This document shows positions 1 through 12,809 of a stretch of DNA of 12,809 nt, one piece after another. The notes under the pieces were generated by a model, which was not told where the DNA came from, searched no databases, and worked only from the letters and a program-made list of their open reading frames with translations. Every line of letters starts with the position of its first letter. The stretch's first letter is position 1. Position numbers and translations under genes: made by a program. The stretch is from Tannerella sp. (GTDB lineage: Bacteria > Bacteroidota > Bacteroidia > Bacteroidales > Tannerellaceae), in assembly GCA_031282485.1 (NCBI GenBank), contig JAITDQ010000288.1, positions 1 to 12,809 on the forward strand, given 5' to 3'.

Positions 1-1140
1 CGTATCGGCGATTTGGCGACGGTGTTCTCAACGGATTACTTGCTTCGCCTGCCGGTGATTTTTGCCGTGAGCTATGTGGTCTTTGCGCTGGGGTATGTTA
101 TGCAGGGGAAGTCGCTAAAAGATACGTTGGGTTATATCATCATCTTCCTGTTAGCCGCAGTCGCTTTGATAATCGGCGGTAACCGCACGATCAATCACTG
201 GGGGCTGGAAAGCGTTATTTTCAGTTTGACGGCAGGGTTGCTGATCAATAACGTTTTCGGCGTCCCCGAATGGATGAAAAAGTCGCTGTCGTCGGAGTTG
301 TATATCAAGATAGGGCTGATATTGCTCGGTGCAACCATCCTTTTTCAGAATTTGTTGAAGTCGGGTACACTGGGTTTGATACAGTCGGTCGTAGTCGTAT
401 TCGGCGTCTGGTATTTTTCTTTTTGGCTGTGCCGCCGTTTCAGGATCGACAGGGAATTGTCGGTAATGCTTTCGAGTGCGGTTTCGATTTGCGGTGTGTC
501 GGCAGCAATTGCAAGTGCGGGAGTTATCAAGGGCGATCCGAAAAAACTGCTGTACGTCGTATCGCTTGTACTGATTGTCGCCGTGCCGATGATTCTCGTT
601 ATGCCTCCGTTGGCTCGCTTGATGGGATTGAACGAAACGCTGGCCGGAGCATGGATCGGCGGCACGATCGACACTACCGGGGCGGTAGTCGCTACCGGAA
701 CTTTGTATGGAGAGGAAGCCCTGAAGATGGCTACGATCGTGAAGTTTTCGCAAAATGTCCTGCTGGGCATTGCCGCATTTCTGATTGCCGTTTACTGGAA
801 TTATACGAAGCAGCATAAAACGGATGCTTCCGGTGAAAAACCTTCATTGAGCCTCCTGTGGGAACGTTTTCCGAAGTTCGTTTTGGGATTTGTGTTTGTA
901 TCGCTGCTGTTCTCCGTATGTTTCGCGGGCGAGGAATACGATCCGCTTGCCGGCTCGTTGAAAAAGTTTCAAAATCTTTGGTTTACACTGGGTTTTGTCT
1001 CCATCGGTCTGGAAACGAATTTCAGGACGCTAATCAACGGCGAAAACCGTAAGGCCACATTCGTATTTCTCGGCGCACAATTGTTCAACGTTGTTTTTAC
1101 GCTTTTGGTGGCGTTTCTGGTTTTTGGAATTAAGTATTAA
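1..1140 (+). CDS. YeiH-family putative sulfate exporter (5' partial)
   Basis: Integral inner-membrane protein of the YeiH / putative sulfate exporter family (formerly conserved hypothetical 698). The frame is open to the first base of the window, so the true start is probably upstream; a TTG at 13 is possible but lacks support. Numbering from that TTG, the sequence is almost wholly hydrophobic, with about 10-12 membrane segments. It carries the family's conserved stretches SICGVSAAIA (158-167), GGTIDTTGAVVA (216-227) and KFSQNVLLG (244-252). The stop is TAA at 1138-1140, and the next gene begins 11 bp later, which suggests cotranscription with the sulfatases. Export of sulfate is the family's annotation rather than a well-proven activity. 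A role in disposing of sulfate or sulfite linked to desulfation is an inference from position. The family call is secure; the substrate is not. Confidence 0.88.
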   Translation, partial: RIGDLATVFSTDYLLRLPVIFAVSYVVFALGYVMQGKSLKDTLGYIIIFLLAAVALIIGGNRTINHWGLESVIFSLTAGLLINNVFGVPEWMKKSLSSELYIKIGLILLGATILFQNLLKSGTLGLIQSVVVVFGVWYFSFWLCRRFRIDRELSVMLSSAVSICGVSAAIASAGVIKGDPKKLLYVVSLVLIVAVPMILVMPPLARLMGLNETLAGAWIGGTIDTTGAVVATGTLYGEEALKMATIVKFSQNVLLGIAAFLIAVYWNYTKQHKTDASGEKPSLSLLWERFPKFVLGFVFVSLLFSVCFAGEEYDPLAGSLKKFQNLWFTLGFVSIGLETNFRTLINGENRKATFVFLGAQLFNVVFTLLVAFLVFGIKY

Positions 1141-1151
1141 AATAAGAAATT

Positions 1152-2951
1152 ATGAAAATCAATAAAGTTAAAAATCAAATTTCGCAAAGGGGAATCCGGT
1201 TATGTACGTTCGGATTCACTGCCGGGACTGGTATCCTGGCCGCTGCTTCGTGTGCAACAAACACGGAAGAAAAGAAACTTCCGAATATCATCCTGATTAT
1301 GTCGGACGATATGGGTTACTCGGATATCGAACGGTTCGGAAGTGTCATTCACACTCCGAATTTGAACAGACTGGCTGATGAAGGCGTCAGTTTCAGGCAG
1401 TTCTATAACACGGCAAGAAGCTGTCCCACGCGGGCGAGCCTGCTTACCGGATTGCATCCGCATCAGGCCGGCATCGGACACATGATGAACGACAGGGCGG
1501 TAGATGGATACCGCGGCGATTTAAGCCCCCACAGCGTTACCATTGCGGAGGCTTTGAAACCGGCCGGATATAAAAATTACGCCGTCGGCAAGTGGCATGT
1601 TACCCGGCATATCACGGAAAACAGCTCTAAACACAACTGGCCGCTGCAACGCGGGTTCGACAAATATTACGGTATTCTGTCGGGCGCTGCCAGCTATTAT
1701 GATCCGGGAGCGCTGTGTCGCGACAATCAGTTGATCTCCCCCTTCAATGATCCCGACTATACCTATCCGGCAACCGGCGAAGAAAGTTATTACCTGACCG
1801 AAGCATTAGGCGATAATGCGGTTAAATTCATCCGGGAACATAACCGTGAAACCGCCGACAAACCGTTTTTTATGTATGTCACTTTTACGGCAGCACACTG
1901 GCCGATGCAAGTTCCCGAAAGGTTTGTGACGCCGTATTACGGAAAATTCGACAAGGGATGGGATGAATTGCGCAGAGAAAAGTATGCACATCAGGTGGAA
2001 CAGGGTATCGTCGATGCCCGGTGGGATTTGTCGGCAGACAGTACCGTCACGCCTTGGGATGCGGTCGAAGACAAACGGTTTGAAACGCGCTGCATGGAAG
2101 TTTACGCAGGCATGATTTCGTGTCTGGATAAAAATATCGGCAAAATTATTGACGAATTGCAAGCAACAGGTCAACTGGATAACACGGTCGTACTGTTTTT
2201 ACAGGACAATGGCGCCTGTGCCGAAATCACGGGACGCGAGAGGCCGCTGTATTATGCTCCCGTACCCGAAGGAGAAAAACTCGAACCCATGCAACCCGAC
2301 GAACTGCAAAAGGACGGACGCCCCTGGCGTACGCGTGACGGCCTGCCGGTAAAACGCGGCTACGGAGTGCTGCCTGGCGGACATGATACATATATCGCTT
2401 ACGGAAAAGGATGGGCTTATTACAGCAACACTCCTTTCCGTGAATACAAACACTGGGTTCACGAGGGTGGCATTTCAACACCCTTGATTGTACGCTGGAA
2501 GAACGGCATAAAGGCCGCCGGAGAAATTCGCCAAACACCCGGACAGTTACCCGATATTATGGCTACTCTGGTCGATATTTCGGGCGCCGGATATCCCCAA
2601 AGCTACAATGGAAATACAATTGTCCCCTTGCAGGGCGTCAGTCTGAAACCGGCATTTGAGAAAGATACGGAAAGCGACAGATTCCTGTTTTGGGAACACG
2701 AAAACAATAAGGCCATTCGGCAGGGGAAATGGAAATTAGTCTATAAATTCACCCCACAGGATGAATATAAAGATGTCGACAGACCGACGCCATACGACAA
2801 ATGGGAATTGTACGACCTGGAAAACGACCGGACGGAAACGAAGAACATAGCCGGGAAGTATCCTGAAAAAGTCAGGCAATTAGCCGACGAATGGGAGCGA
2901 ATCGCATGGAAAAGCCTCGTCAAGCCCTATCCCGAAGAAAAGTATTTTTAA
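1152..2951 (+). CDS. Ser-type S1 arylsulfatase, lipoprotein
   Basis: Sulfate ester hydrolase of the formylglycine-dependent S1 family, 599 aa. The N-terminus is a lipoprotein signal ending TFGFTAGTGILAAASC, with lipidated Cys34. The catalytic motif is S90-C91-P92-T93-R94: Arg lies four residues after Ser90, so Ser90 is the formylglycine precursor and Cys91 is only the variable position. Predicted metal ligands are D52, D53, D352 and N353. Other family active-site positions are K147 and H149 (GKWHV), H249 and K433. The C-terminal part (about 440-599) is the usual sulfatase subdomain, with the ELYDLENDRTET motif. The start ATG follows the transporter by 11 bp. The nearest relative in the window is the sulfatase at 6017, which shares the signal peptide type and the WVHEGGISTPLI segment. 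Sulfatase identity is certain. The substrate is unknown, and 'arylsulfatase' is a family label only. Confidence 0.95.
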   Translation: MKINKVKNQISQRGIRLCTFGFTAGTGILAAASCATNTEEKKLPNIILIMSDDMGYSDIERFGSVIHTPNLNRLADEGVSFRQFYNTARSCPTRASLLTGLHPHQAGIGHMMNDRAVDGYRGDLSPHSVTIAEALKPAGYKNYAVGKWHVTRHITENSSKHNWPLQRGFDKYYGILSGAASYYDPGALCRDNQLISPFNDPDYTYPATGEESYYLTEALGDNAVKFIREHNRETADKPFFMYVTFTAAHWPMQVPERFVTPYYGKFDKGWDELRREKYAHQVEQGIVDARWDLSADSTVTPWDAVEDKRFETRCMEVYAGMISCLDKNIGKIIDELQATGQLDNTVVLFLQDNGACAEITGRERPLYYAPVPEGEKLEPMQPDELQKDGRPWRTRDGLPVKRGYGVLPGGHDTYIAYGKGWAYYSNTPFREYKHWVHEGGISTPLIVRWKNGIKAAGEIRQTPGQLPDIMATLVDISGAGYPQSYNGNTIVPLQGVSLKPAFEKDTESDRFLFWEHENNKAIRQGKWKLVYKFTPQDEYKDVDRPTPYDKWELYDLENDRTETKNIAGKYPEKVRQLADEWERIAWKSLVKPYPEEKYF

Positions 2952-2974
2952 AGAGAATATGTTATCAAGTTATT

Positions 2975-3129
2975 ATGAAAGGTATTATAAACAGCAAAAA
3001 TCTTGGGCTGGTATCCTCCGCTTTACTGCTGGGTGGAAATGCTATTGCACAGTACAGTCCCACGCTTGCGCTGGACAGACTTGCTAATAACGGACTTCGT
3101 TTTACGAATTTCCACACCTGTACATTCAG
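2975..3129 (+). pseudogene. Remnant of a sulfatase 5' end, internally deleted
   Basis: This stretch is paralogous to the first part of the sulfatase at 3726. Bases 2990-3070 align without gaps to 3741-3821 at roughly 80% identity. Bases 3068-3129 align to 3981-4042 at roughly 75%. The 162 bp between these blocks in the intact gene (54 codons, carrying the metal-binding Asp pair D68-D69) are missing here. The homology stops exactly at CATTCAG, inside the codon of the formylglycine serine, so no catalytic function remains. Most substitutions are silent, which indicates that the two copies diverged under protein-level selection before this one was truncated. The remaining ~1.9 kb of the copy is not seen before 3726. 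Confidence 0.82.
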
Positions 3130-3616
3130 ACGGATGACATTATTCCTTGTCCTGTTTGTTCAAATTTGTAGTGTTGGATGCAGTGATAAAAACAAACAAT
3201 CGCCTGTTGAAGAATCCATAATAGACAATGAGGAAGAAATATTGGTATGCAATGACCTGCTCAATAAAAACAATAAAAATGTTACGGAGATTAAAGACAT
3301 AAAAACCAAACTGTTTTTTGAAGTTCGTGACCCGCTTGGACATCCACAACGGTTTGGAGAAGGCATAAGTTATATAAAAACAGACAGTACGGCATTATTT
3401 CGGTATTATATTTATTATAACAACAATGATGTCGGCCCGATTATTTACACTTATGTGTGTGATATATGCAATTTTCCTGATTATGCAACCGAATGGGAAC
3501 GGCAGGAAGAGGGAATTGATATTGTTATAAACGGAAACATCTATCCTTCATTTGAATCCGAAAAAGAAATTCATGGTATTTTAGAATTAACAACATTAGA
3601 AAGAACTAAACAATAA
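2975..3616 (+). CDS. Chimeric ORF: sulfatase leader fused to putative lipoprotein
   Basis: A 213-aa frame from the ATG at 2975, which lies 23 bp after the preceding sulfatase. Residues 1-52 copy the N-terminus of the sulfatase at 3726, including its Sec signal (SSALLLGGNAIAQYSPT), but lack the segment between the signal and ALDRLANNGLRFTNF. At residue 53 the sequence switches to an unrelated protein. That part opens with its own hydrophobic leader from Met54 (ATG at 3134) and ends in a possible lipobox, SVGC (Cys69), giving a 160-aa lipoprotein with an acidic and polar linker. It is then rich in Tyr, Ile and Asn, including DICNFPDYATEWERQEEGID. I do not recognise a family for it. The lipoprotein part is markedly AT-rich (about 25-33% G+C in sampled 60-base lines, against about 60% in a sampled line of the next gene). 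Translation could start at 2975 or 3134; neither has a clear ribosome binding site. The frame also extends upstream to an ATG at 2891, inside the previous gene, which is an unlikely start. Confidence 0.6.
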   Translation: MKGIINSKNLGLVSSALLLGGNAIAQYSPTLALDRLANNGLRFTNFHTCTFRRMTLFLVLFVQICSVGCSDKNKQSPVEESIIDNEEEILVCNDLLNKNNKNVTEIKDIKTKLFFEVRDPLGHPQRFGEGISYIKTDSTALFRYYIYYNNNDVGPIIYTYVCDICNFPDYATEWERQEEGIDIVINGNIYPSFESEKEIHGILELTTLERTKQ

Positions 3617-3619
3617 AAC

Positions 3620-3653
3620 GATTTATTTTACTTTTTGTATTAGCAAATAAATC
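3620..3653. repeat. AT-rich 9-bp inverted repeat after the chimeric ORF
   Basis: GATTTATTT at 3620-3628 and AAATAAATC at 3645-3653 are perfect inverted complements around a 16-base loop, starting 3 bp after the stop of the chimeric ORF. It could be a weak terminator hairpin or an operator-like site. The stem has one G-C pair and no clean T-tract follows, so it may equally be chance in AT-rich DNA. It sits in the only gap over 40 bp in the window (3617-3725), the most plausible place for an internal promoter. I could not identify a convincing Bacteroidota promoter there (-33 TTTG with -7 TAnnTTTG). Confidence 0.3.
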
Positions 3654-3725
3654 TTGACAGAAAAATTATCGTACAACATTGATATTTATAGTGAGCAATC
3701 TAAAATTTAAATAAACTGTATAAAT

Positions 3726-6020
3726 ATGAGTACAAAGTTAAACAGCAAACATCTGGGGCTGCTCTCTTCCGCTTTACTGCTGGGCGGAAGCGCCGTTGCG
3801 CAATACAGCCCCACGCCCGCGTTTGAGGGCAAAATCGGCAAAACACCGGCCGATACAAAGGAATCGCTGCCGAAAACGCAGCCTGTAGCTTCCGAAGATG
3901 CGCCTAACGTAATCTGGTTCATCATTGACGACATCGGTTACGGCGCGGCGTCTGCTTTCGGCGGACTGATTGAAACGCCTGCGCTGGACAGGCTGGCCAA
4001 CCAGGGGTTGCGTTTCACGAACTGGCATACCTGCGCATTCAGCGCACCCACGCGGGCTGCCCTGCTGACCGGACGCAATCAACATTCCGTGCATTTCGGC
4101 TATTTCGCCAATTCTTCGTACGGAACGCCCGGCTACGACGGGTACCTGCCGTTCGAGAAAGCTACCATTGCCGAAATCCTGCGCGAAAACGGCTATAATA
4201 CGTTTGCCATCGGCAAATATCACGTCACCCATTCGGCTGACGCATCGCAGGCCGGACCGTTCAATCGCTGGCCGACCGGACGCGGATTTGATCACTACTT
4301 CGGTTATTCGCCGGACTCCGGCGCCGACGACCAGTGGCATCCTACGCTCTATCGCGATACGCAACGCGAACCGGAAGATCCGCAGGGACGCCACGTGAAT
4401 GAACTGTTTGCCAACGAAGCGATCCGTTACATTTCCGACCAGAAATCGGCGGCGCCCGACAAACCGTTTTTCCTCTATTTCTCAACCGGATCGGGACATG
4501 CTCCGCATCACGTTCAGAAGGAATGGATCGACAAATACAAAGGCAAATTCGACAAAGGTTGGGACTGGTATCGCGAAGAAACCCTTGCCCGCCAGAAACA
4601 GTTGGGCGTCGTCCCGGCCAATACCCCGTTGTCGCCACGAAACCCGGAAGTCAAACCGTGGGACGAATTGACGGCCGACGAAAAAAAACTGTTCACGCGC
4701 CATATCGAAACATACGCCGGATTCATTTCACAGACAGACAGCGAAATCGGCCGGATCGTCCGTTTCATCGAAGAAATCGGACAATTGGACAATACGCTGA
4801 TTGTCGTCATGATCGGTGACAATGGAGCGGAAGGTTCGGGCAAAGCCTTAGGTCGTTTCCTGTCGAACGCACAAGACGCCTCGCGCGAACAGATCGTAAA
4901 CAAAGCCGTCAGGAATCTGGATTTGCTGGGCACCGAATATTCGTTCCCCAATTATCCCGACGGATGGGCAGCGGCAACCAACACGCCTTTCCGTTACTAT
5001 AAAGGCTACGCTACGTACGAAGGAGGTACGCATGACCCGCTGATCCTGTTCTATCCGAAAAAGATCAGGGATAAAGGCGGCATCCGGCATCAGTATTCGT
5101 ATGTGAGCGATATCCTCCCGACTACGGTTGAACTGGTCGGCGCCAAAGTACCCACGGTCATCAACGGTTATCCGCAGGAACCCGTCGAAGGCATCAGCCT
5201 GGCATATACCATTGCACCGGAAAACAAAAATCTGCACGAGCGTCACACCGTTCAGTATCACGAAATGGTCGGCTCGTACGCCATTTACAAAGACGGCTGG
5301 AAAGCGTCGTTCCCAAGCCGGATTGACCGTTATGATCGTTTGCCCGAAAACGAAAAAAAGTGGCATCTGTACCATGTATCGGAAGATTTCAACGAACTAA
5401 ATGATCTGGCAGACCAATATCCGGACAAGATAAAGGAACTGATCGACGTGTTCGACAGCGAAGCCTGGAAATACAACGTCTACCCGCTGAAAGAACAGTG
5501 GGAAACAAAAAACTGGAGCATCCACGACAGCGACAGGCAGGTGACCATTTACACCTCCGGACGTCCGTATGCCGAAGCCAATGGATTCCGTTTCTCAACC
5601 GGCTCCTATGCGGTCACAGTATATGCGGAAATCCCAAAGACCGGAGCCGAAGGCGTCCTGTTCTCCTCCGGAAACGGAACGACAAGCGGCGTCAGCCTGT
5701 ATGTAAAAAACAGGAAACCGGTTTTTGCCTATAACGCCGAAGGACAACTGATTGAGCTGATTTCCGACAAGACGCTTCCTGCCGGCGACGTCACAGTGAA
5801 AGCAGAAGTCATTTACAGCAACGAAAAAGGAACGGACAAAACCATTACGCTCTACGTCAATGGCGAAAAAGCGGGGACAAAAGAAATCGGACGCATTGCC
5901 AACGCCGGCAGCAACCTTCTGCAGGCCGGACGCAATTTCGGAACGCCTGTTTCTCCGGCCTACAAATCGCCGTATATCTTCACCGGCAACCTGAAAAAAG
6001 TAGTAATTGATAAGTTATGA
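3726..6020 (+). CDS. Large Ser-type S1 arylsulfatase with C-terminal beta-sandwich
   Basis: Formylglycine sulfatase of the large (about 760-790 aa) arylsulfatase type, 764 aa. A Sec signal with probable cleavage after SAVA (residues 22-25) sends it to the periplasm or beyond as a soluble protein. The catalytic motif is S106-A107-P108-T109-R110, with serine in place of the more usual cysteine. Predicted metal ligands are D68, D69, D365 and N366. Other active-site positions are K164 and H166 (GKYHV), H258 and K426. Residues about 603-764 form a glycine-rich, probably LamG-like beta-sandwich typical of this large type; it may support folding or substrate binding. It has no lipobox, unlike its neighbours at 1152 and 6017. 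Its stop codon overlaps the next start (ATGA, 6017-6020), implying translational coupling. A degenerate copy of its 5' end lies upstream at 2975-3129. Substrate unknown. Confidence 0.95.
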   Translation: MSTKLNSKHLGLLSSALLLGGSAVAQYSPTPAFEGKIGKTPADTKESLPKTQPVASEDAPNVIWFIIDDIGYGAASAFGGLIETPALDRLANQGLRFTNWHTCAFSAPTRAALLTGRNQHSVHFGYFANSSYGTPGYDGYLPFEKATIAEILRENGYNTFAIGKYHVTHSADASQAGPFNRWPTGRGFDHYFGYSPDSGADDQWHPTLYRDTQREPEDPQGRHVNELFANEAIRYISDQKSAAPDKPFFLYFSTGSGHAPHHVQKEWIDKYKGKFDKGWDWYREETLARQKQLGVVPANTPLSPRNPEVKPWDELTADEKKLFTRHIETYAGFISQTDSEIGRIVRFIEEIGQLDNTLIVVMIGDNGAEGSGKALGRFLSNAQDASREQIVNKAVRNLDLLGTEYSFPNYPDGWAAATNTPFRYYKGYATYEGGTHDPLILFYPKKIRDKGGIRHQYSYVSDILPTTVELVGAKVPTVINGYPQEPVEGISLAYTIAPENKNLHERHTVQYHEMVGSYAIYKDGWKASFPSRIDRYDRLPENEKKWHLYHVSEDFNELNDLADQYPDKIKELIDVFDSEAWKYNVYPLKEQWETKNWSIHDSDRQVTIYTSGRPYAEANGFRFSTGSYAVTVYAEIPKTGAEGVLFSSGNGTTSGVSLYVKNRKPVFAYNAEGQLIELISDKTLPAGDVTVKAEVIYSNEKGTDKTITLYVNGEKAGTKEIGRIANAGSNLLQAGRNFGTPVSPAYKSPYIFTGNLKKVVIDKL
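3813..3983. repeat. Short direct repeats bounding the segment missing from the remnant
   Basis: ACGCCCGCG at 3813-3821 and ACGCCTGCG at 3975-3983 match at 8 of 9 bases, are spaced exactly 162 bp apart and lie in the same reading frame. The remnant upstream has a single ACGCTTGCG (3062-3070) at the corresponding place. This is the pattern expected if slippage between such repeats removed 54 codons from the other copy. Confidence 0.65.
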
Positions 6021-7669
6021 ACAGTCAAATGTTTCAAACAGGAAACCGGTTCCGCACGTTCGGATTCGCAACGGGAACCGGTTTCCTGGCGTTCACAGCA
6101 TGTACGAACGACGCCAACACGGACAAGCGTCCGAACATTCTGCTTATCGTAGCCGATGATATGGGCTACTCCGACCTCGGATGTTTCGGCGGAGAAATAG
6201 AAACGCCGAATATAAACGGCCTGGCATCAAACGGACTTCGTTTCACCCATTTTTACAATGCCGGACGGTCGTGGCCGACACGTGCTTCGCTTATGACGGG
6301 TTATTATTATCAGGCTGTGCAAAAATCGTCGGAGGGGAACCGACCGGAAAAATGGTCCCGCTCCATAGCGCATTTTCTGTCATCTGCCGGATATCACAGC
6401 TATCAATCCGGGAAGTGGCATGTGAACGAAATGCCGAAACCTCATGCCGATGCGGGTTTTGAACATTCATACCTGACTTCGTACGGTGCAAGTCATTTTG
6501 TGCCGAAAGATTATGTCGACGATGAGTTGGCCGATGTCGATTCAATCGGTTATTACCAGGCAACCGCCATTACCGACCGGGCGATAAGCATGTTGAAAGG
6601 CCACAGGGAACAGTATCCCGATGCTCCTTTTTTTCTCTATCTGACATATCATACGCCTCATTTCCCTCTACAGGCGCCACCGGAAGACATCGAAAAATAT
6701 AAGAACCGTTATCGGGAAGGATGGGATAAATTACGCGAAGAACGACTGTTTCGCCTGCGTCAACTGGGGATTGCAGATTACCCGCAGGCTGTCATAGAGC
6801 CGCAGGCACACTGGATCTATCAGGACGAAACATTGCTCCGGGACACCTTCGGTATAAATGAAGTCTACGAATATGTACCCTGGGAAACTTTGAGCGAAGA
6901 ACAAAAAGAATTTCAGGCAACTAAAATGGCAATACATGCAGCCATGATCGACCGGATGGATCAAGAAATCGGACGAACACTCAATCAATTACGTGAAAGC
7001 GGTGATTTCGACAATACCGTCATTTTCTTTCTTTCCGATAATGGCTGTTCGACTGAAATCATGGTACGTGGAGAAGGACATGACCGAAATGCGCCAATCG
7101 GCTCCGTAAATACTCACCTCTGTCTCGGACCGGGATTTGCCGCAGCCTCAAACACTCCTTTGCGTCGCAGTAAGGTATGGGTACATGAAGGCGGTATTTC
7201 CACTCCTTTGATAATCCATTGGGGTAAAGGCCTTCATGTCGGAGACGAACTGCGTCATACGCCCGCGCATCTGGTCGACCTGATGCCGACGATACTGGAT
7301 TTAGCCGGCGGAATCAATCCGTACGACGTTGCAGGAACGGATTATCCCGCTCTTCATGGTAAAAGTCTGCTGCCCGCTTTTTCCGAAGACAAAACGGTTG
7401 AACATGATTATATCTATTTTAATCACCAGCGAAATTACGCATTGCGTATGGGAGACTGGAAAATCGTCACGTCGGAACTTGACGGTCATGTATGGAGCCT
7501 CTACAATATTTCCGAAGACCGCGGCGAGACAAATGACCTCGCATCCGTCTATCCCGATTTATTGAAAAGTATGCTGAATAAATGGAACGCTTTGACCGAA
7601 GAATTTAGCAGTCAAAATCAAAATCCAACTCAACAACAGATAGTTGATGGCGTTATCGTGAAAAAATAA
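6017..7669 (+). CDS. Ser-type S1 sulfatase, lipoprotein
   Basis: Formylglycine sulfatase, 550 aa. The leader TFGFATGTGFLAFTAC resembles that of the sulfatase at 1152 and ends in a probable lipidated Cys29, so the enzyme is predicted to be membrane-anchored. The catalytic motif is S85-W86-P87-T88-R89, with serine encoded by TCG; the other three sulfatases use AGC. Predicted metal ligands are D47, D48, D341 and N342. Other active-site positions are K133 and H135 (GKWHV), H215 and K386. Compared with the sulfatase at 1152, the region just after the catalytic helix is diverged: the HPHQAGIGHM stretch is replaced by YYYQAV. This may reshape the substrate pocket. It starts inside the stop codon of the preceding gene (4-bp overlap). 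WVHEGGISTPLI (388-399) is shared with the 1152 enzyme, supporting tandem paralogy. Substrate unknown. Confidence 0.94.
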   Translation: MNSQMFQTGNRFRTFGFATGTGFLAFTACTNDANTDKRPNILLIVADDMGYSDLGCFGGEIETPNINGLASNGLRFTHFYNAGRSWPTRASLMTGYYYQAVQKSSEGNRPEKWSRSIAHFLSSAGYHSYQSGKWHVNEMPKPHADAGFEHSYLTSYGASHFVPKDYVDDELADVDSIGYYQATAITDRAISMLKGHREQYPDAPFFLYLTYHTPHFPLQAPPEDIEKYKNRYREGWDKLREERLFRLRQLGIADYPQAVIEPQAHWIYQDETLLRDTFGINEVYEYVPWETLSEEQKEFQATKMAIHAAMIDRMDQEIGRTLNQLRESGDFDNTVIFFLSDNGCSTEIMVRGEGHDRNAPIGSVNTHLCLGPGFAAASNTPLRRSKVWVHEGGISTPLIIHWGKGLHVGDELRHTPAHLVDLMPTILDLAGGINPYDVAGTDYPALHGKSLLPAFSEDKTVEHDYIYFNHQRNYALRMGDWKIVTSELDGHVWSLYNISEDRGETNDLASVYPDLLKSMLNKWNALTEEFSSQNQNPTQQQIVDGVIVKK

Positions 7670-7707
7670 GGATCATCCGTTGATATTTCAAACTATAAAC
7701 AAATCCA

Positions 7708-9588
7708 ATGAAAAATAAGAAGACAATAACCTCATGCTTCCTGTCATCATTAGCACTAACAGGCATAGCATCCGAAAGACCTAACATCTTGTGGATCACA
7801 AGTGAAGACAACAGCCCGATGCTGGGTTGCTACGGCGACAAGTTTGCCGTAACGCCTAACCTCGACCGTCTGGCAGCCGAAGGCTTTCGTTACACACATG
7901 CTTACGCCTGCGCTCCGGTAAGCGCACCTGCCCGAAATACGATTATAACGGGCGTATATGCCTGTTCGGCAGGCAATCAACACATGCGCAGTTGGTACGG
8001 AAAATCAAATACGGTGCATTATTATCCCGAATTTTTGCGCCAGTCGGGTTATTATTGCACTAATAACCCGAAAGAAGACTACAATCATCCGGCAGAGCAA
8101 ACCCGTGACATCTGGGATGAATCGGGCCGAGACGCCCATTACAGGAACAGGAAACCGGGACAACCGTTTTTCGCCGTGTTTAACAGCTCTATTTCTCACG
8201 AAAGCTGTATTCACAAATCTATCCCGCCGGATGAACTCCGCCATGACCCCAGTCTGGTTACATTACCCCCATATCATCCCGACACGAAGGAACTTCGCCA
8301 TGACTGGGCGCAGTATTACGACAAAATAGAAGATATGGACGCCTGGGTGGGCGAAATACTCAAGGAGTTGGAAGAAAGCGGAGAGGCAGACAATACAATC
8401 GTCTTTTATTACAGTGATCACGGGGGCGCACTATGCCGCAGCAAACGTTATGTCTATGAAACGGGGACGCATGTCCCGTTCATCGTCAGGATTCCCGAAA
8501 AATTCAAACATTTGTTCCCCGAACACAAACCGGACACAACGGTCGACCGTCTCATCAGTTGGGTAGATTTAGCGCCCACTTTATTGAGCATCACAGGAAT
8601 CCCTGTTCCCGAATGGATGCAGGGGACTGCGTTCCTCGGACAACAGACGGCGACCGAACCGGAATATGTCTTCATGTTCAGAAATCGTATGGACGAACGT
8701 TATGACATGTCGCGTGCCATCCGCGACAAGCGTTTCCGCTATATCCGCAATTATCAGCCACACCGTATATACGGACAACACAACAATTACCTTTGGCTTG
8801 CTCCTTCGGTAGCGTCATGGGAAAATGCATACAAGTCGGGACTTTGTAATCGTGTCCAGTCCGTATTCTGGGAAACAAAACCGGCAGAAGAATTGTATGA
8901 TACGGAAAATGATGTATGGGAAATCCATAACCTTGCCGACAATCCGGATTACAGACAGGAACTTGAACGACTTAGAAATGCCCTGAATGACCGGATGATA
9001 AATATCTGCGATGCAGGTTTTATTCAAGAAGGTGAATATGAACGCATCAACAACACGACGACGATGTATGATTACCTGCGCTCGCCGGAATATCCGATTG
9101 CCGAAATCGTCCGTGTGGCCAATATTGCCACCCTGAAAGACAAAAAAAATCTGCCTGATTTGACGGAATACTTAAAAAGCAACAACCGGATTATTCGTTA
9201 TTGGGCGGCAACCGGACTGCTGATTCTCGGCAAAGATGCGGAAAGTAGCGTGGATCATCTGACTACCGCACTTCAAGACCCTTCTCCCGATGTGACAATC
9301 GTAGCGGCAGAGGCTTTGTATCGTCTCGGCCAACGTCAAAAAAGTGTGGAAACTTTGTTGACGGCCTTAGAAAATCCGAATGTCTCGGTTCGAACTTTCG
9401 CCTTGAATATTATTGATAATTTGGACGAAAGAAGCCCTCGTGTCAGACAGGCGGTCGAAAAACTCGGCAAAAAATCGAAGGACGACAAAAACCCGGAACG
9501 ACACGATCTGCGGATGGTGAACTGGCTCGCAACAAAATGGAATAATAACGTAAACCACTCCGTAGAACTTTTCCCCAAATTACAATAA
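7708..9588 (+). CDS. Ser-type heparan N-sulfatase-like sulfatase with HEAT-like repeats
   Basis: Formylglycine sulfatase of 626 aa, resembling the heparan N-sulfatase (sulfamidase, SGSH) group of S1. It has a Sec signal (residues 1-22, cleaved near GIAS) and no lipobox. The catalytic motif is S72-A73-P74-A75-R76; the usual form in relatives is C-A-P-A-R. The metal site differs from the other three enzymes: the first acidic pair is E33-D34 (TSEDNSP) and the second pair is D237-H238 (SDHGG). H164, K122 and K246 are likely active-site contacts. From about residue 466 to 590 there are two to three helical HEAT-like repeats (for example VRVANIATL, IIRYWAATGLLILG, VTIVAAEALYRLG). Such an extension is known in bacterial sulfatases and may mediate protein or glycan contacts. 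It starts 38 bp after the preceding gene. Activity on N-sulfated glucosamine is only one possibility; related proteins act on other sulfated sugars. Confidence 0.93.
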   Translation: MKNKKTITSCFLSSLALTGIASERPNILWITSEDNSPMLGCYGDKFAVTPNLDRLAAEGFRYTHAYACAPVSAPARNTIITGVYACSAGNQHMRSWYGKSNTVHYYPEFLRQSGYYCTNNPKEDYNHPAEQTRDIWDESGRDAHYRNRKPGQPFFAVFNSSISHESCIHKSIPPDELRHDPSLVTLPPYHPDTKELRHDWAQYYDKIEDMDAWVGEILKELEESGEADNTIVFYYSDHGGALCRSKRYVYETGTHVPFIVRIPEKFKHLFPEHKPDTTVDRLISWVDLAPTLLSITGIPVPEWMQGTAFLGQQTATEPEYVFMFRNRMDERYDMSRAIRDKRFRYIRNYQPHRIYGQHNNYLWLAPSVASWENAYKSGLCNRVQSVFWETKPAEELYDTENDVWEIHNLADNPDYRQELERLRNALNDRMINICDAGFIQEGEYERINNTTTMYDYLRSPEYPIAEIVRVANIATLKDKKNLPDLTEYLKSNNRIIRYWAATGLLILGKDAESSVDHLTTALQDPSPDVTIVAAEALYRLGQRQKSVETLLTALENPNVSVRTFALNIIDNLDERSPRVRQAVEKLGKKSKDDKNPERHDLRMVNWLATKWNNNVNHSVELFPKLQ

Positions 9589-9615
9589 AACAGGATTTCC
9601 ATCGTTTTCCGATAT

Positions 9616-11589
9616 ATGCGATTCATTCGTTACATAGAACTTGTGCTGGCAGGGATATTGCTCTTCTCCTGCAAAAGTGTTAAACTCAGTGTTGCCGAAG
9701 AAAAGCAACGCATAGGGGAGTATTATGAAGCGGCGAACATGTACCGAAAACTGTATTCGAAAGCCAAACCTGACGAACGCGACATGCGGGCATACGTTTC
9801 CTACCGTATGGGTATCTGCTATCAGAAAATCAACGATGTATCGCGGGCTACAAGCGCCTACCTGAGCGCTCTGAGGTACAATTATCCCGACAGCCTGCTG
9901 AACCTGCGGCTCGCACAGACGTATCATCAGGGCGGACGATACGGCGATGCCATCAACTGTTATAATAAGTTTCTGGAACAAACCCCGGAAAGCTTAATCG
10001 CAATAAACGGATTGAAAGGATGCGCACTTGCCGTGGAAATGAAGGAAAAGCCCACCCCGTACCAGGTTCGCAAAATGGATATTTTTAATTCCCGTTACGG
10101 CGAATTTAGCCCGGCGCTTACGGGTGATGATTATGATAAACTGTACTTTGCATCGTCGCGCGCAAAGAAAGTAAGCAAAGATTCCTTGAGCAGTATAACG
10201 GGGCAGTTAGTCAATAACATCTACCTCGCGGAAAAAGATGAAAAGGGCGCATGGAAAAAACCGGTAGAACTCGAAGACGCCATCAATACGAAGTTTGACG
10301 AAGGAACACCGTCCCTGTCTGCCGACGGCAACACGATGTATTACACCTATTGCGAAAGCGACCCGATAAGCGCGCGACCTGCGGAAATACACATCTCTAC
10401 CCGCAGCGGAGCGTCATGGGGCGCAGGCTCGCGGGCTAACTTAGTAAAAGATTCCATCACAAACGCAGGGCATCCGGCAATATCGCCCGACGGTAAATAT
10501 CTGTATTTCGTATCCGACATGGGCGGTTATGGCGGAAAAGACATCTTTCGTGCGCGGCTTGTCGGAATGAACGATTTCGGCGGCATAGAAAACCTCGGCC
10601 CGCAGATAAACACCGCCGGCGACGAAATGTTCCCATACGTACGCGATTCGGCAACCATCTATTTCTCCTCAAACGGACATCCCGGACTGGGCGGCCTCGA
10701 CCTGTTCAAGGCGTCCGTAGACAGCGTAGGCGTATGGCATGTGGAAAACATGGGCTACCCCGTAAATTCCATGGGAGACGATTTCGGCATCACATTCGAA
10801 GGAAACCGGGAAAGAGGATTTTTCTCATCCAACCGGAACGACGCCCGCGGATACGACCATATTTATGCATTTGAACGCCCGTCCGTAACGATTTTCATCG
10901 AAGGATACGTCTCCGACGCCGAAGGAAATCCTGTCGAAGGGGCATTAGTGCGCATCGTAGGCAAAGACGGACTGAACGAAAAAGTGCCGGCAAAACCGGA
11001 CGGTTCATACAAAGTCGAACTCGAACGCGACATAAGTTACGTGATGATGGCAAGCGCCCCCGATTACCTGAACCAGAATTTCGAACTGAAGACCGACCCC
11101 GACGAACGGAACGAAACCTATTACGTGGACTTCTATCTGTCGCCCATTCATAAACCTACCGTTGTGGAAAATATCTTCTACGCCTTCGATTCGGCAACCC
11201 TCCGCCCGGAATCGAAAGAAGCCCTCGACGAAATCATTCAGGTGCTGAACGACAATCCCAACATAACCATAGAAATGGGTGCACATACCGACCGGAAAGG
11301 TTCCGACAGCTATAACGAACGACTGGCGCAACGGCGTGCACAGTCGGTCGTCGACTACCTGATTGAAGCCGGTATCCCGGCAGACCGCCTGACGGCCAAA
11401 GGTTACGGCAAATCCGAACCGAAAACCGTGACGGGGAAAATGGCCGGAGAACACGATTTCCTTCATGAGGGAGATGTCCTTACGGAACAGTACATCCTCC
11501 GCCTGACGCCGGAACAGCAGGAAATCGCCGACCAGTACAACCGCCGGACGGAATTTAAAGTAACCGGAATGACTTATAACCTTTATTAA
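9616..11589 (+). CDS. PorE-like OmpA-family lipoprotein (TPR-PD40-CRD-OmpA)
   Basis: A 657-aa envelope protein whose domain order matches PorE, a peptidoglycan-binding accessory component of the Bacteroidota type IX secretion system. A short leader with lipobox LFSC (Cys19) predicts a lipoprotein. Residues about 25-135 are TPR-like helices. Residues about 155-420 are PD40/WD40-like propeller blades (for example HPAISPDGKYLYFVSD and FPYVRDSATIYFSS). Residues about 425-510 are a carboxypeptidase regulatory-like domain (GYVSDAEGNPVEGALVRI). Residues about 517-605 are an OmpA C-terminal domain with the peptidoglycan-contact pair D559 and R574 (HTDRKG, NERLAQRRA). It follows the sulfatase by 27 bp and precedes the maturase by 24 bp. 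Many Bacteroidales encode several proteins with this architecture, so a role in secretion is a hypothesis. None of the sulfatases here shows a type IX sorting domain. It may simply anchor envelope complexes to peptidoglycan. Confidence 0.88.
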   Translation: MRFIRYIELVLAGILLFSCKSVKLSVAEEKQRIGEYYEAANMYRKLYSKAKPDERDMRAYVSYRMGICYQKINDVSRATSAYLSALRYNYPDSLLNLRLAQTYHQGGRYGDAINCYNKFLEQTPESLIAINGLKGCALAVEMKEKPTPYQVRKMDIFNSRYGEFSPALTGDDYDKLYFASSRAKKVSKDSLSSITGQLVNNIYLAEKDEKGAWKKPVELEDAINTKFDEGTPSLSADGNTMYYTYCESDPISARPAEIHISTRSGASWGAGSRANLVKDSITNAGHPAISPDGKYLYFVSDMGGYGGKDIFRARLVGMNDFGGIENLGPQINTAGDEMFPYVRDSATIYFSSNGHPGLGGLDLFKASVDSVGVWHVENMGYPVNSMGDDFGITFEGNRERGFFSSNRNDARGYDHIYAFERPSVTIFIEGYVSDAEGNPVEGALVRIVGKDGLNEKVPAKPDGSYKVELERDISYVMMASAPDYLNQNFELKTDPDERNETYYVDFYLSPIHKPTVVENIFYAFDSATLRPESKEALDEIIQVLNDNPNITIEMGAHTDRKGSDSYNERLAQRRAQSVVDYLIEAGIPADRLTAKGYGKSEPKTVTGKMAGEHDFLHEGDVLTEQYILRLTPEQQEIADQYNRRTEFKVTGMTYNLY

Positions 11590-11613
11590 AAACAGATATA
11601 AAAAGAGTAAATC

Positions 11614-12809
11614 ATGGGAGAAACGCTATATTTCAGTCCGCTGTCATTTCCGTTATATGTAATGGCAAAACCTGCCGGCCCGATGTGCAATATGGATTGC
11701 GAATACTGTTATTACTTAGAAAAAAGCGAACTGTTCGCCGGACGGAACGGATATAAAATGCAGGAAGACCTGCTCGAACGGTTCACCGACGAATACATAA
11801 ACTGCCAGACCTCGCCATTCGTCCAGTTCACGTGGCACGGAGGCGAAGCCCTGCTCCGCAGCATAGACTTCTACCGCAAAGCGATACGTCTGCAACAACA
11901 GTACGGGCGCGGACGCGAAATATCAAACTGCATCCAGACAAATGGACTGTTACTAAACGACGAATGGTGTCGTTTCTTCAAAGACAACAATTTCCTGATC
12001 GGCATCTCCATCGACGGGCCGGAAAGGATTCATGACCATTACCGCAAAGACCGCGGCGGACGCGGAACCTTCAAACGTGTGATGCGGGGGATTGAACTGC
12101 TGCAGAAACACGGCGTAGAATTTAATACGCTGTCTGTAATCAATGACTATAATGTCGGGTATCCGGTTGAAATATACCGCTTTTTTAAAGAAATAGGAAG
12201 CCGCTACATGCAGTTTTCTCCCATTGTGGAACGGTTGGGCACACGGGCTGACGGACTTGAAATGCTCACAGCCGACGACCGTCCCGACGACGGTGAAATC
12301 GCCTCCTGGTCAGTCAATCCCGTTGCTTACGGGAATTTTTATATCCGCATGTTCGACGAATGGGTACGCCACGATGTAGGCCGGTATTACGTGCAACTTT
12401 TCGACGCCACACTGGCCGGAATGGTACACGAACAGCCCGGCGTATGCATCTATGCCGAAACATGCGGCCACGCCCTCGCCATGGAACATAACGGAGACGT
12501 CTACGCATGCGACCATTTCGTATATCCCGAATACCTCAGGGGTAACATCCTGCACGATTCGCTTGTAAGCATAACGCTTTCCGGCGAACAAAAGCGATTC
12601 GGTAACGACAAACGCGACCGTCTGCCCCTGCAATGCCGCACCTGCCGTTTCCTGAACCTTTGCAACGGCGAGTGTCCGAAAAACCGGATAGCAACAACCG
12701 CCGCCGGCGAGTACGGCCTGAATTACCTCTGCCCCGGCCTCCGCATGTATTTCGAACACGTATATCCCTATATGGAATTTATGGCGGAAGAACTGCGCAA
12801 CCAAAGACC
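11614..12809 (+). CDS. Anaerobic sulfatase-maturating enzyme, radical SAM/SPASM (3' partial)
   Basis: A cytoplasmic radical-SAM enzyme that oxidises a Cys or Ser of nascent sulfatases to formylglycine without oxygen. 398 codons are visible and no stop is reached; relatives are about 370-415 aa, so little is missing. The SAM cluster motif is C25-N-M-D-C29-E-Y-C32, followed by GGE (76-78) and SIDGP (132-136). The C-terminal SPASM region has the full set for two auxiliary [4Fe-4S] clusters: C278, C284, C299, C341, C344, C350, C354 and C373. Their spacing is nearly the same as in the characterised Clostridium perfringens anSME, and D300, right after C299, corresponds to its proposed catalytic base. 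CNGECPK (350-356) has Glu where CNGGCPK is usual. The chosen ATG is 24 bp after the preceding stop. In this cluster all four candidate substrates are Ser-type, which makes this their likely dedicated maturase, although anSMEs commonly accept both residues. Confidence 0.95.
   Translation, partial: MGETLYFSPLSFPLYVMAKPAGPMCNMDCEYCYYLEKSELFAGRNGYKMQEDLLERFTDEYINCQTSPFVQFTWHGGEALLRSIDFYRKAIRLQQQYGRGREISNCIQTNGLLLNDEWCRFFKDNNFLIGISIDGPERIHDHYRKDRGGRGTFKRVMRGIELLQKHGVEFNTLSVINDYNVGYPVEIYRFFKEIGSRYMQFSPIVERLGTRADGLEMLTADDRPDDGEIASWSVNPVAYGNFYIRMFDEWVRHDVGRYYVQLFDATLAGMVHEQPGVCIYAETCGHALAMEHNGDVYACDHFVYPEYLRGNILHDSLVSITLSGEQKRFGNDKRDRLPLQCRTCRFLNLCNGECPKNRIATTAAGEYGLNYLCPGLRMYFEHVYPYMEFMAEELRNQR

Follow-up and report, generated by a model that had tools for sequence, protein, structure and literature searches.

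Serine-type sulfatases upstream of a porE-anSME pair in Tannerella reflect the precursor residue of the genome and the genus

We analysed a stretch of 12,809 nt from Tannerella sp. (contig JAITDQ010000288.1; hereafter the window), which encodes four intact S1 sulfatases, the type IX secretion protein PorE and an anaerobic sulfatase maturase (anSME). The formylglycine precursor is serine (Ser) in all four sulfatases, as the initial annotation had noted, and this trait is a property of the genome and the genus, not of the cluster in the window. The arrangement is very probably an ordinary cluster beside porE-anSME, with one anSME for the whole genome and Ser as the state of the lineage. Under this explanation, a common Bacteroidales arylsulfatase cluster, made up of a PF03601 transporter, three AtsA-like sulfatases and one S1_8-like sulfatase, would have ended up upstream of porE and anSME. 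The single anSME would convert Ser to formylglycine both in the four sulfatases of the window and in those encoded elsewhere in the genome, the arrangement described for Bacteroides thetaiotaomicron. The Ser-type set would be a lineage state tied to anSME, which acts on Ser and cysteine (Cys), and not to the formylglycine-generating enzyme (FGE), which acts on Cys. The Ser of the window sulfatases would thus follow from the Ser-type character of sulfatases in Tannerella.

The window is one contig of a 2.56 Mb Tannerella assembly, which comprises 384 contigs and is 80.28% complete. A profile search found PF00884 matches at 18 places in this genome. All 15 sulfatases with a formylglycine motif are Ser-type, and 11 of them lie on other contigs than the window; the 15 include one with SANAR (L014; G, C and L numbers denote genomes, contigs and loci) and two genes truncated at the edge of their contig (L013, L015). 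This count is 16 rows minus one truncated duplicate, while the tree test described below shows 14, two paralogues sharing the same core. The remaining three places (L016, L017, L018) lack the motif where the nucleophile would be; in L018 a CDPVR lies upstream of that position, and the masked model described below did not call it. Only one anSME match was detected in the genome, namely that of the window. The initial annotation had regarded Ser-type sulfatases that are equally common elsewhere in the genome, with no link to this maturase, as evidence against a system confined to the cluster. The other 11 of 11 are indeed Ser-type, yet they too have only this one detected anSME. Most likely, then, one anSME serves the whole genome, as far as gene content can tell. 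The Cys pair that we take to mark a canonical FGE was absent from all three PF03781 proteins of the 80%-complete assembly, which agrees with the dependence on radical S-adenosylmethionine (SAM) maturation that had been proposed from the window, as does the association of Ser with anSME reported below.

To type the precursor residue we used a hidden Markov model (HMM) with the formylglycine column masked, and these counts are used throughout. Outside the own genome, the typed set consists of higher-scoring matches together with sulfatases in loci fetched for anSME or PF03781, and is a non-random draw. Regular-expression motif scans gave unequal counts (95, then 88 Ser for the genus; 13 for the own genome; 51 Ser and 28 Cys, then 48 and 28, for the order) and were set aside in favour of the masked-HMM counts; two of their hits, with E or C, were called by neither the stricter scan nor the HMM. 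In 31 other Tannerella genomes, 106 of the 108 typed sulfatases were Ser and two were Cys, so that four of four Ser in the window is what one would expect. The initial annotation had considered this outcome unlikely to arise by chance. Chance is indeed not the explanation, since Ser goes with anSME; the residue is nevertheless unsurprising for the genus. If the share of 21.1% Ser (against 78.9% Cys) given for SulfAtlas in the excerpted text of PMC5066984 applied, four of four would have a chance probability of about 0.002. According to the same excerpt, Ser-type sulfatases occur only in facultative or strict anaerobes, bar two eukaryotic entries. Both Cys sulfatases of the genus belong to G035, where a divergent anSME, 45% identical, lies about 0.9 kb from two Cys-type sulfatases with CTAGR (contig C133, L419). 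The other three typed sulfatases of G035 are Ser; a canonical FGE is also present (L381), and the listed contamination is 6%.

Beyond the genus, 32 of 118 other Bacteroidales genomes yielded typed sulfatases, 62 with Ser and 37 with Cys. Twenty-three of these genomes were all-Ser, eight all-Cys and one mixed (G357). Among the 21 with at least two typed sulfatases a single genome was mixed, as compared with 15.6 expected and a minimum of 9 in 20,000 label shuffles. Ser versus Cys thus behaves as a genome trait; we did not meet this uniformity in the literature searched, which does not show that it is unpublished. Two all-Cys Bacteroidales genomes, G300 and G324, are so despite an anSME over the cut-off. 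Outside the order, typed sulfatases were obtained from the fetched stretches of 7 of the 11 genomes with an anSME over the cut-off, and all 17 were Cys; 26 further genomes with no anSME over the cut-off, found by similarity to the gene at 3726, gave 46 Cys and 0 Ser. The best 120 database relatives of that gene comprised 82 Ser and 38 Cys. All 12 Tannerella-named rows among them were Ser, and the Cys rows include Dyadobacter, Sphingobacterium and Chitinophagaceae. A published survey of PVC (Planctomycetes-Verrucomicrobia-Chlamydiae) bacteria, as excerpted, counted 5 Ser in 2040 although its two strains each have an anSME (PMC6388578).

We then considered whether the Ser state could be due to chance, or to common descent, a few sulfatases having been duplicated recently. 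Three of the four window sulfatases are relatives of one arylsulfatase group, as such an origin would predict. On a FastTree tree of 278 sulfatase rows, however, at least 46 Ser/Cys changes were needed (100 shuffles: mean 81.8, minimum 71), and yet the genomes are uniform, which leaves this explanation very little probability. Since FastTree was used, single branches are weak; as a whole the 46 changes point toward Ser sulfatases spread over separate subfamilies that have Cys members in Cys genomes. In 26 independent pairs from starred branches (262 rows), Ser went with anSME in 15.9, against it in 0, and no difference was seen in 10.1 (median p 3e-5). This test sets aside 16 of the 278 rows, the anSME status of their genomes being uncertain: 15 Ser rows from seven genomes 60-81% complete in which no anSME was found (G012, G018, G019, G026, G032, G038, G297) and one Cys row of G292, whose anSME piece is cut at a contig edge. 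When all 278 rows were used and an undetected anSME was counted as absent, 27 pairs gave 15.3 with, 1.5 against and 10.2 without difference (median p 0.001), a weaker result with unchanged direction. Overall, 164 of 179 Ser rows come from genomes with a detected anSME, the other 15 being those of the seven incomplete genomes, and the Cys rows are divided into 34 with and 65 without anSME. Ser therefore mostly implies anSME, while anSME does not imply Ser.

The distribution of FGE was also examined. Its Cys pair was present in the best PF03781 match of 11 of 12 Cys genomes lacking anSME. The exception is G190 (L180, L273, L289, L418), whose sulfatases are Cys-type and which showed no anSME over the cut-off; the two PF03781 matches read from it lacked the FGE Cys pair. 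Of 12 anSME genomes, four had no PF03781 match; in the other eight, no GG-C-x4-C was found in 11 loci, the C-terminal stretch being located in 7 of these 11 (4 of the 8 genomes). Among 24 further genomes, for which the best one or two PF03781 matches each were read, the Cys pair appeared in two, the all-Cys G403 and the mixed G035. Four Bacteroidales genomes that are 93-99% complete, G381, G293, G328 and G358, have typed sulfatases that are all Cys (11, 5, 1 and 2; L330-L333, L338-L339, L242, L244, L321). None of them showed an anSME over the cut-off or a PF03781 match exceeding 205 bits, and the one or two matches read in each lacked the FGE Cys pair; they may have a maturase of another kind.

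The initial annotation had read the cluster as a self-contained Ser-only system, with the anSME downstream on the same strand at small gaps. The strand and the gaps are as described (-4, 38, 27 and 24 nt from 3726 to 12807), whereas porE intervenes before the anSME. One could imagine an operon in which the four sulfatases and the anSME evolved together and are expressed jointly. The close packing of same-strand genes from 3726 onward would suit it, and so would a sulfatase upstream of porE-anSME in G008 (L021), as well as the fact that all 14 sulfatases flanking 12 of 80 named anSME loci are Ser. Apart from the intervening PorE, however, Ser is neither confined to the cluster nor enriched in it, given the 11 Ser sulfatases on other contigs, and 68 of the 80 named loci show no sulfatase in the available flank, the flanks being of unequal length. 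In G007, the counterpart of the cluster lies on contig C228 (L413) and the only strong anSME match on C187; the C228 cluster has PF03601, two 3726-like genes, one 6017-like and one 7708-like gene at 70-86% identity, and no 1152-like gene. PorE directly precedes anSME in 9 of the 80 named loci, namely in 8 of 12 Tannerella sp. metagenome-assembled genomes (MAGs) and in one Porphyromonadaceae MAG; it was not in the available flank of the other four Tannerella sp. MAGs or of both T. forsythia loci. In six of the seven loci with upstream sequence it is a queuosine synthesis gene, not a sulfatase, that comes before porE (the family was checked on two and assigned to the rest by 70-77% identity). 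Such an operon is therefore improbable, and the proposed co-occurrence of Ser-type sulfatases with this anSME is not borne out in the neighbourhoods of its relatives. Since linkage between cluster and anSME is not conserved among relatives, the layout of the window is a local juxtaposition, perhaps common to G008. The porE-anSME adjacency itself (window 9616-12807; L020-L026, L028, L037) is unusual in that it joins a secretion gene to a maturation gene.

The anSME of the window was then compared with its relatives. Among the named ones, the closest come from Tannerella sp. MAGs, at 76-94% identity, from a Porphyromonadaceae MAG, at 90%, and from T. forsythia, at 75-77%; judging by their isolate codes, several of these MAGs may stem from termite guts. 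Tannerella genomes (L202-L227) mostly have one of two anSME kinds, either 75-94% or about 60% identical to that of the window. CNMDCEYC (CX3CX2C) and eight further Cys, presumably ligands of the iron-sulfur and auxiliary clusters, are invariant in an alignment of 55 anSME rows (46 from Ser genomes, 9 from Cys genomes). The nearest solved maturase is PDB 4k36 (183 bits; also 4k37-4k39), which we take to be the Clostridium perfringens enzyme. It differs at residue 75 (window 11836-11838), before the GGE motif, where the window enzyme has His and the aligned residue is Gln64.

This residue bears on the idea that Bacteroidales anSMEs became Ser-adapted and that the sulfatase set followed, so that Ser would be enforced and not merely tolerated. 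Such an adaptation is compatible with a single anSME serving a Ser-type lineage, and it would account for the uniformity of the genomes (one mixed of 21, against 15.6 expected) and for the distribution of residue 75, which is His in 40 of the 47 all-Ser genomes, whereas the 9 all-Cys genomes all have Gln. However, Gln also occurs in seven all-Ser genomes, His is present in the mixed G357, and the split follows the tree, with no difference in 2.7 of 3 independent pairs on average. With only about three His/Gln changes on the tree, the residue does not give independent support; it was rejected as an independent marker of Ser preference, and as seen in the alignment it can serve as a lead but does not demonstrate specificity. 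The published account, as excerpted, also gives both Cys and Ser as substrates of anSMEs, and Cys as that of FGEs (PMC6388578; for anSME on both residues, also the Benjdia 2008 title in the reference list of PMC5872301). We consider a Ser-adapted maturase rather unlikely. A broader proposal is that the precursor is set genome-wide in Bacteroidota, anSME-dependent Bacteroidales having moved or kept nearly all sulfatases at Ser across many subfamilies, with other anSME lineages all-Cys. We put this forward tentatively, as a possibility that falls short of even odds; if true, a genome-level pressure, either a Ser-adapted maturase or a cost of free Cys, would act on every sulfatase at once.

Some observations weigh against one anSME serving a Ser-type lineage. 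With the assembly 80% complete and in 384 contigs, a second maturase may be missing from it, while the 11 further Ser sulfatases on other contigs share one detected anSME. The seven all-Ser genomes that are 60-81% complete show no anSME. Tight spacing from 3726 on makes co-transcription of these genes with the anSME possible, and the seventh porE-anSME locus (G008, L021) has one sulfatase and a small open reading frame (ORF) upstream. Conversion by this anSME, export, substrates and shared transcription are predictions from gene content and order.

Klebsiella AtsA/AtsB, a Ser-type sulfatase with a radical SAM maturase, had been offered as the precedent. The window shares both components, but its maturase is not adjacent to a sulfatase, with porE between them, and 11 more Ser sulfatases lie elsewhere. 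B. thetaiotaomicron (chuR, BT_0238) is nearer, being likewise an anaerobic member of Bacteroidales with one anSME and several S1 sulfatases, of which at least BT4656 is Ser-type (excerpts of PMC6388578, PMC5872301 and PMC7897442). Its growth on chondroitin sulfate requires the single anSME (PMC5872301), and Ser77 of BT4656 was switched to Cys for E. coli (PMC7897442). The window differs from B. thetaiotaomicron in having four sulfatases close to the anSME gene, from which porE separates them.

Table 1. Features of the window
Feature	Positions	Strand	Basis and remarks
PF03601 membrane protein (YeiH-like putative sulfate exporter family)	1..1140	+	Pfam 169.9 bits, cut-off 24.5; start cut by window edge
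S1 sulfatase, Ser-type S90 (SCPTR)	1152..2951	+	Pfam Sulfatase 189.2 bits and motif; nearest solved structure 7all, then 1hdh (arylsulfatases)
Codon AGC of S90, formylglycine precursor	1419..1421	+	translation
Arylsulfatase 5'-end remnant with internal gap, within ORF 2891-3616	2988..3129	+	repeats 3739-3826 (81%) and 3975-4042 (75%)
S1 sulfatase with C-terminal Laminin_G_3 domain, Ser-type S106 (SAPTR)	3726..6020	+	Pfam and motif; nearest solved structure 1hdh
Codon AGC of S106	4041..4043	+	translation
S1 sulfatase, Ser-type S85 (SWPTR)	6017..7669	+	Pfam and motif; nearest solved structure 7all
Codon TCG of S85	6269..6271	+	translation
S1 sulfatase with C-terminal HEAT repeats, Ser-type S72 (SAPAR)	7708..9588	+	Pfam and motif; nearest solved structure 9bba, S1_8C sulfatase
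Codon AGC of S72	7921..7923	+	translation
PorE, type IX secretion system (OmpA, PD40, TPR matches)	9616..11589	+	NF052230 929.6 bits, cut-off 600; Pfam
anSME (radical SAM/SPASM)	11614..12807	+	TIGR03942 478.1 vs 349.45, PRK13745 596.4 vs 484; open at window end

The features of the window are listed in Table 1. The Pfam Sulfatase domain is above its cut-off in all four sulfatases (133.3 to 197.1 bits vs 25), and the C/S-x-P/A-x-R motif is present in each, with Ser every time. They had been assigned to at least three subgroups, which the nearest solved structures do not bear out, no SulfAtlas subfamily search having been made: by these structures the first three group with the arylsulfatases 7all and 1hdh, and the fourth with S1_8C. 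No type IX sorting tails were among the Pfam and NCBIfam matches of these sulfatases, no dedicated search having been made, and no tRNA was found in the window. ORF 2891-3616, with no Pfam match and no formylglycine motif, is a shortened, decayed arylsulfatase start followed by a lipoprotein-like stretch without a Pfam match.

The PF03601 gene ends 11 nt before the first sulfatase; its product scores 79.5 with TIGR00698, below the required 232.6. Genes of this kind are found repeatedly next to AtsA-like arylsulfatases, both in Tannerella and in genomes from a different family of the class (L410, L411, L412, L413, L417), and their products possibly export sulfate. In G242 (C16, L411), which belongs to that other family of Bacteroidia, sulfatases 37-49% identical lie beside a PF03601 gene 56% identical. 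The G242 cluster resembles the window in its related sulfatases and transporter family, and differs in having Cys-type sulfatases and a canonical FGE within the cluster, with no anSME over the cut-off.

The system of the window is most likely a further example of the known kind in which one anSME serves many sulfatases. What looked like a local curiosity becomes a testable genome-level rule: in this sample, Ser goes with anSME and genomes are nearly always of one type. The rule can be used in choosing a maturase for the expression of gut sulfatases, and it raises the question of what makes one group of anSME users all-Ser and another all-Cys when both have the same maturase family.

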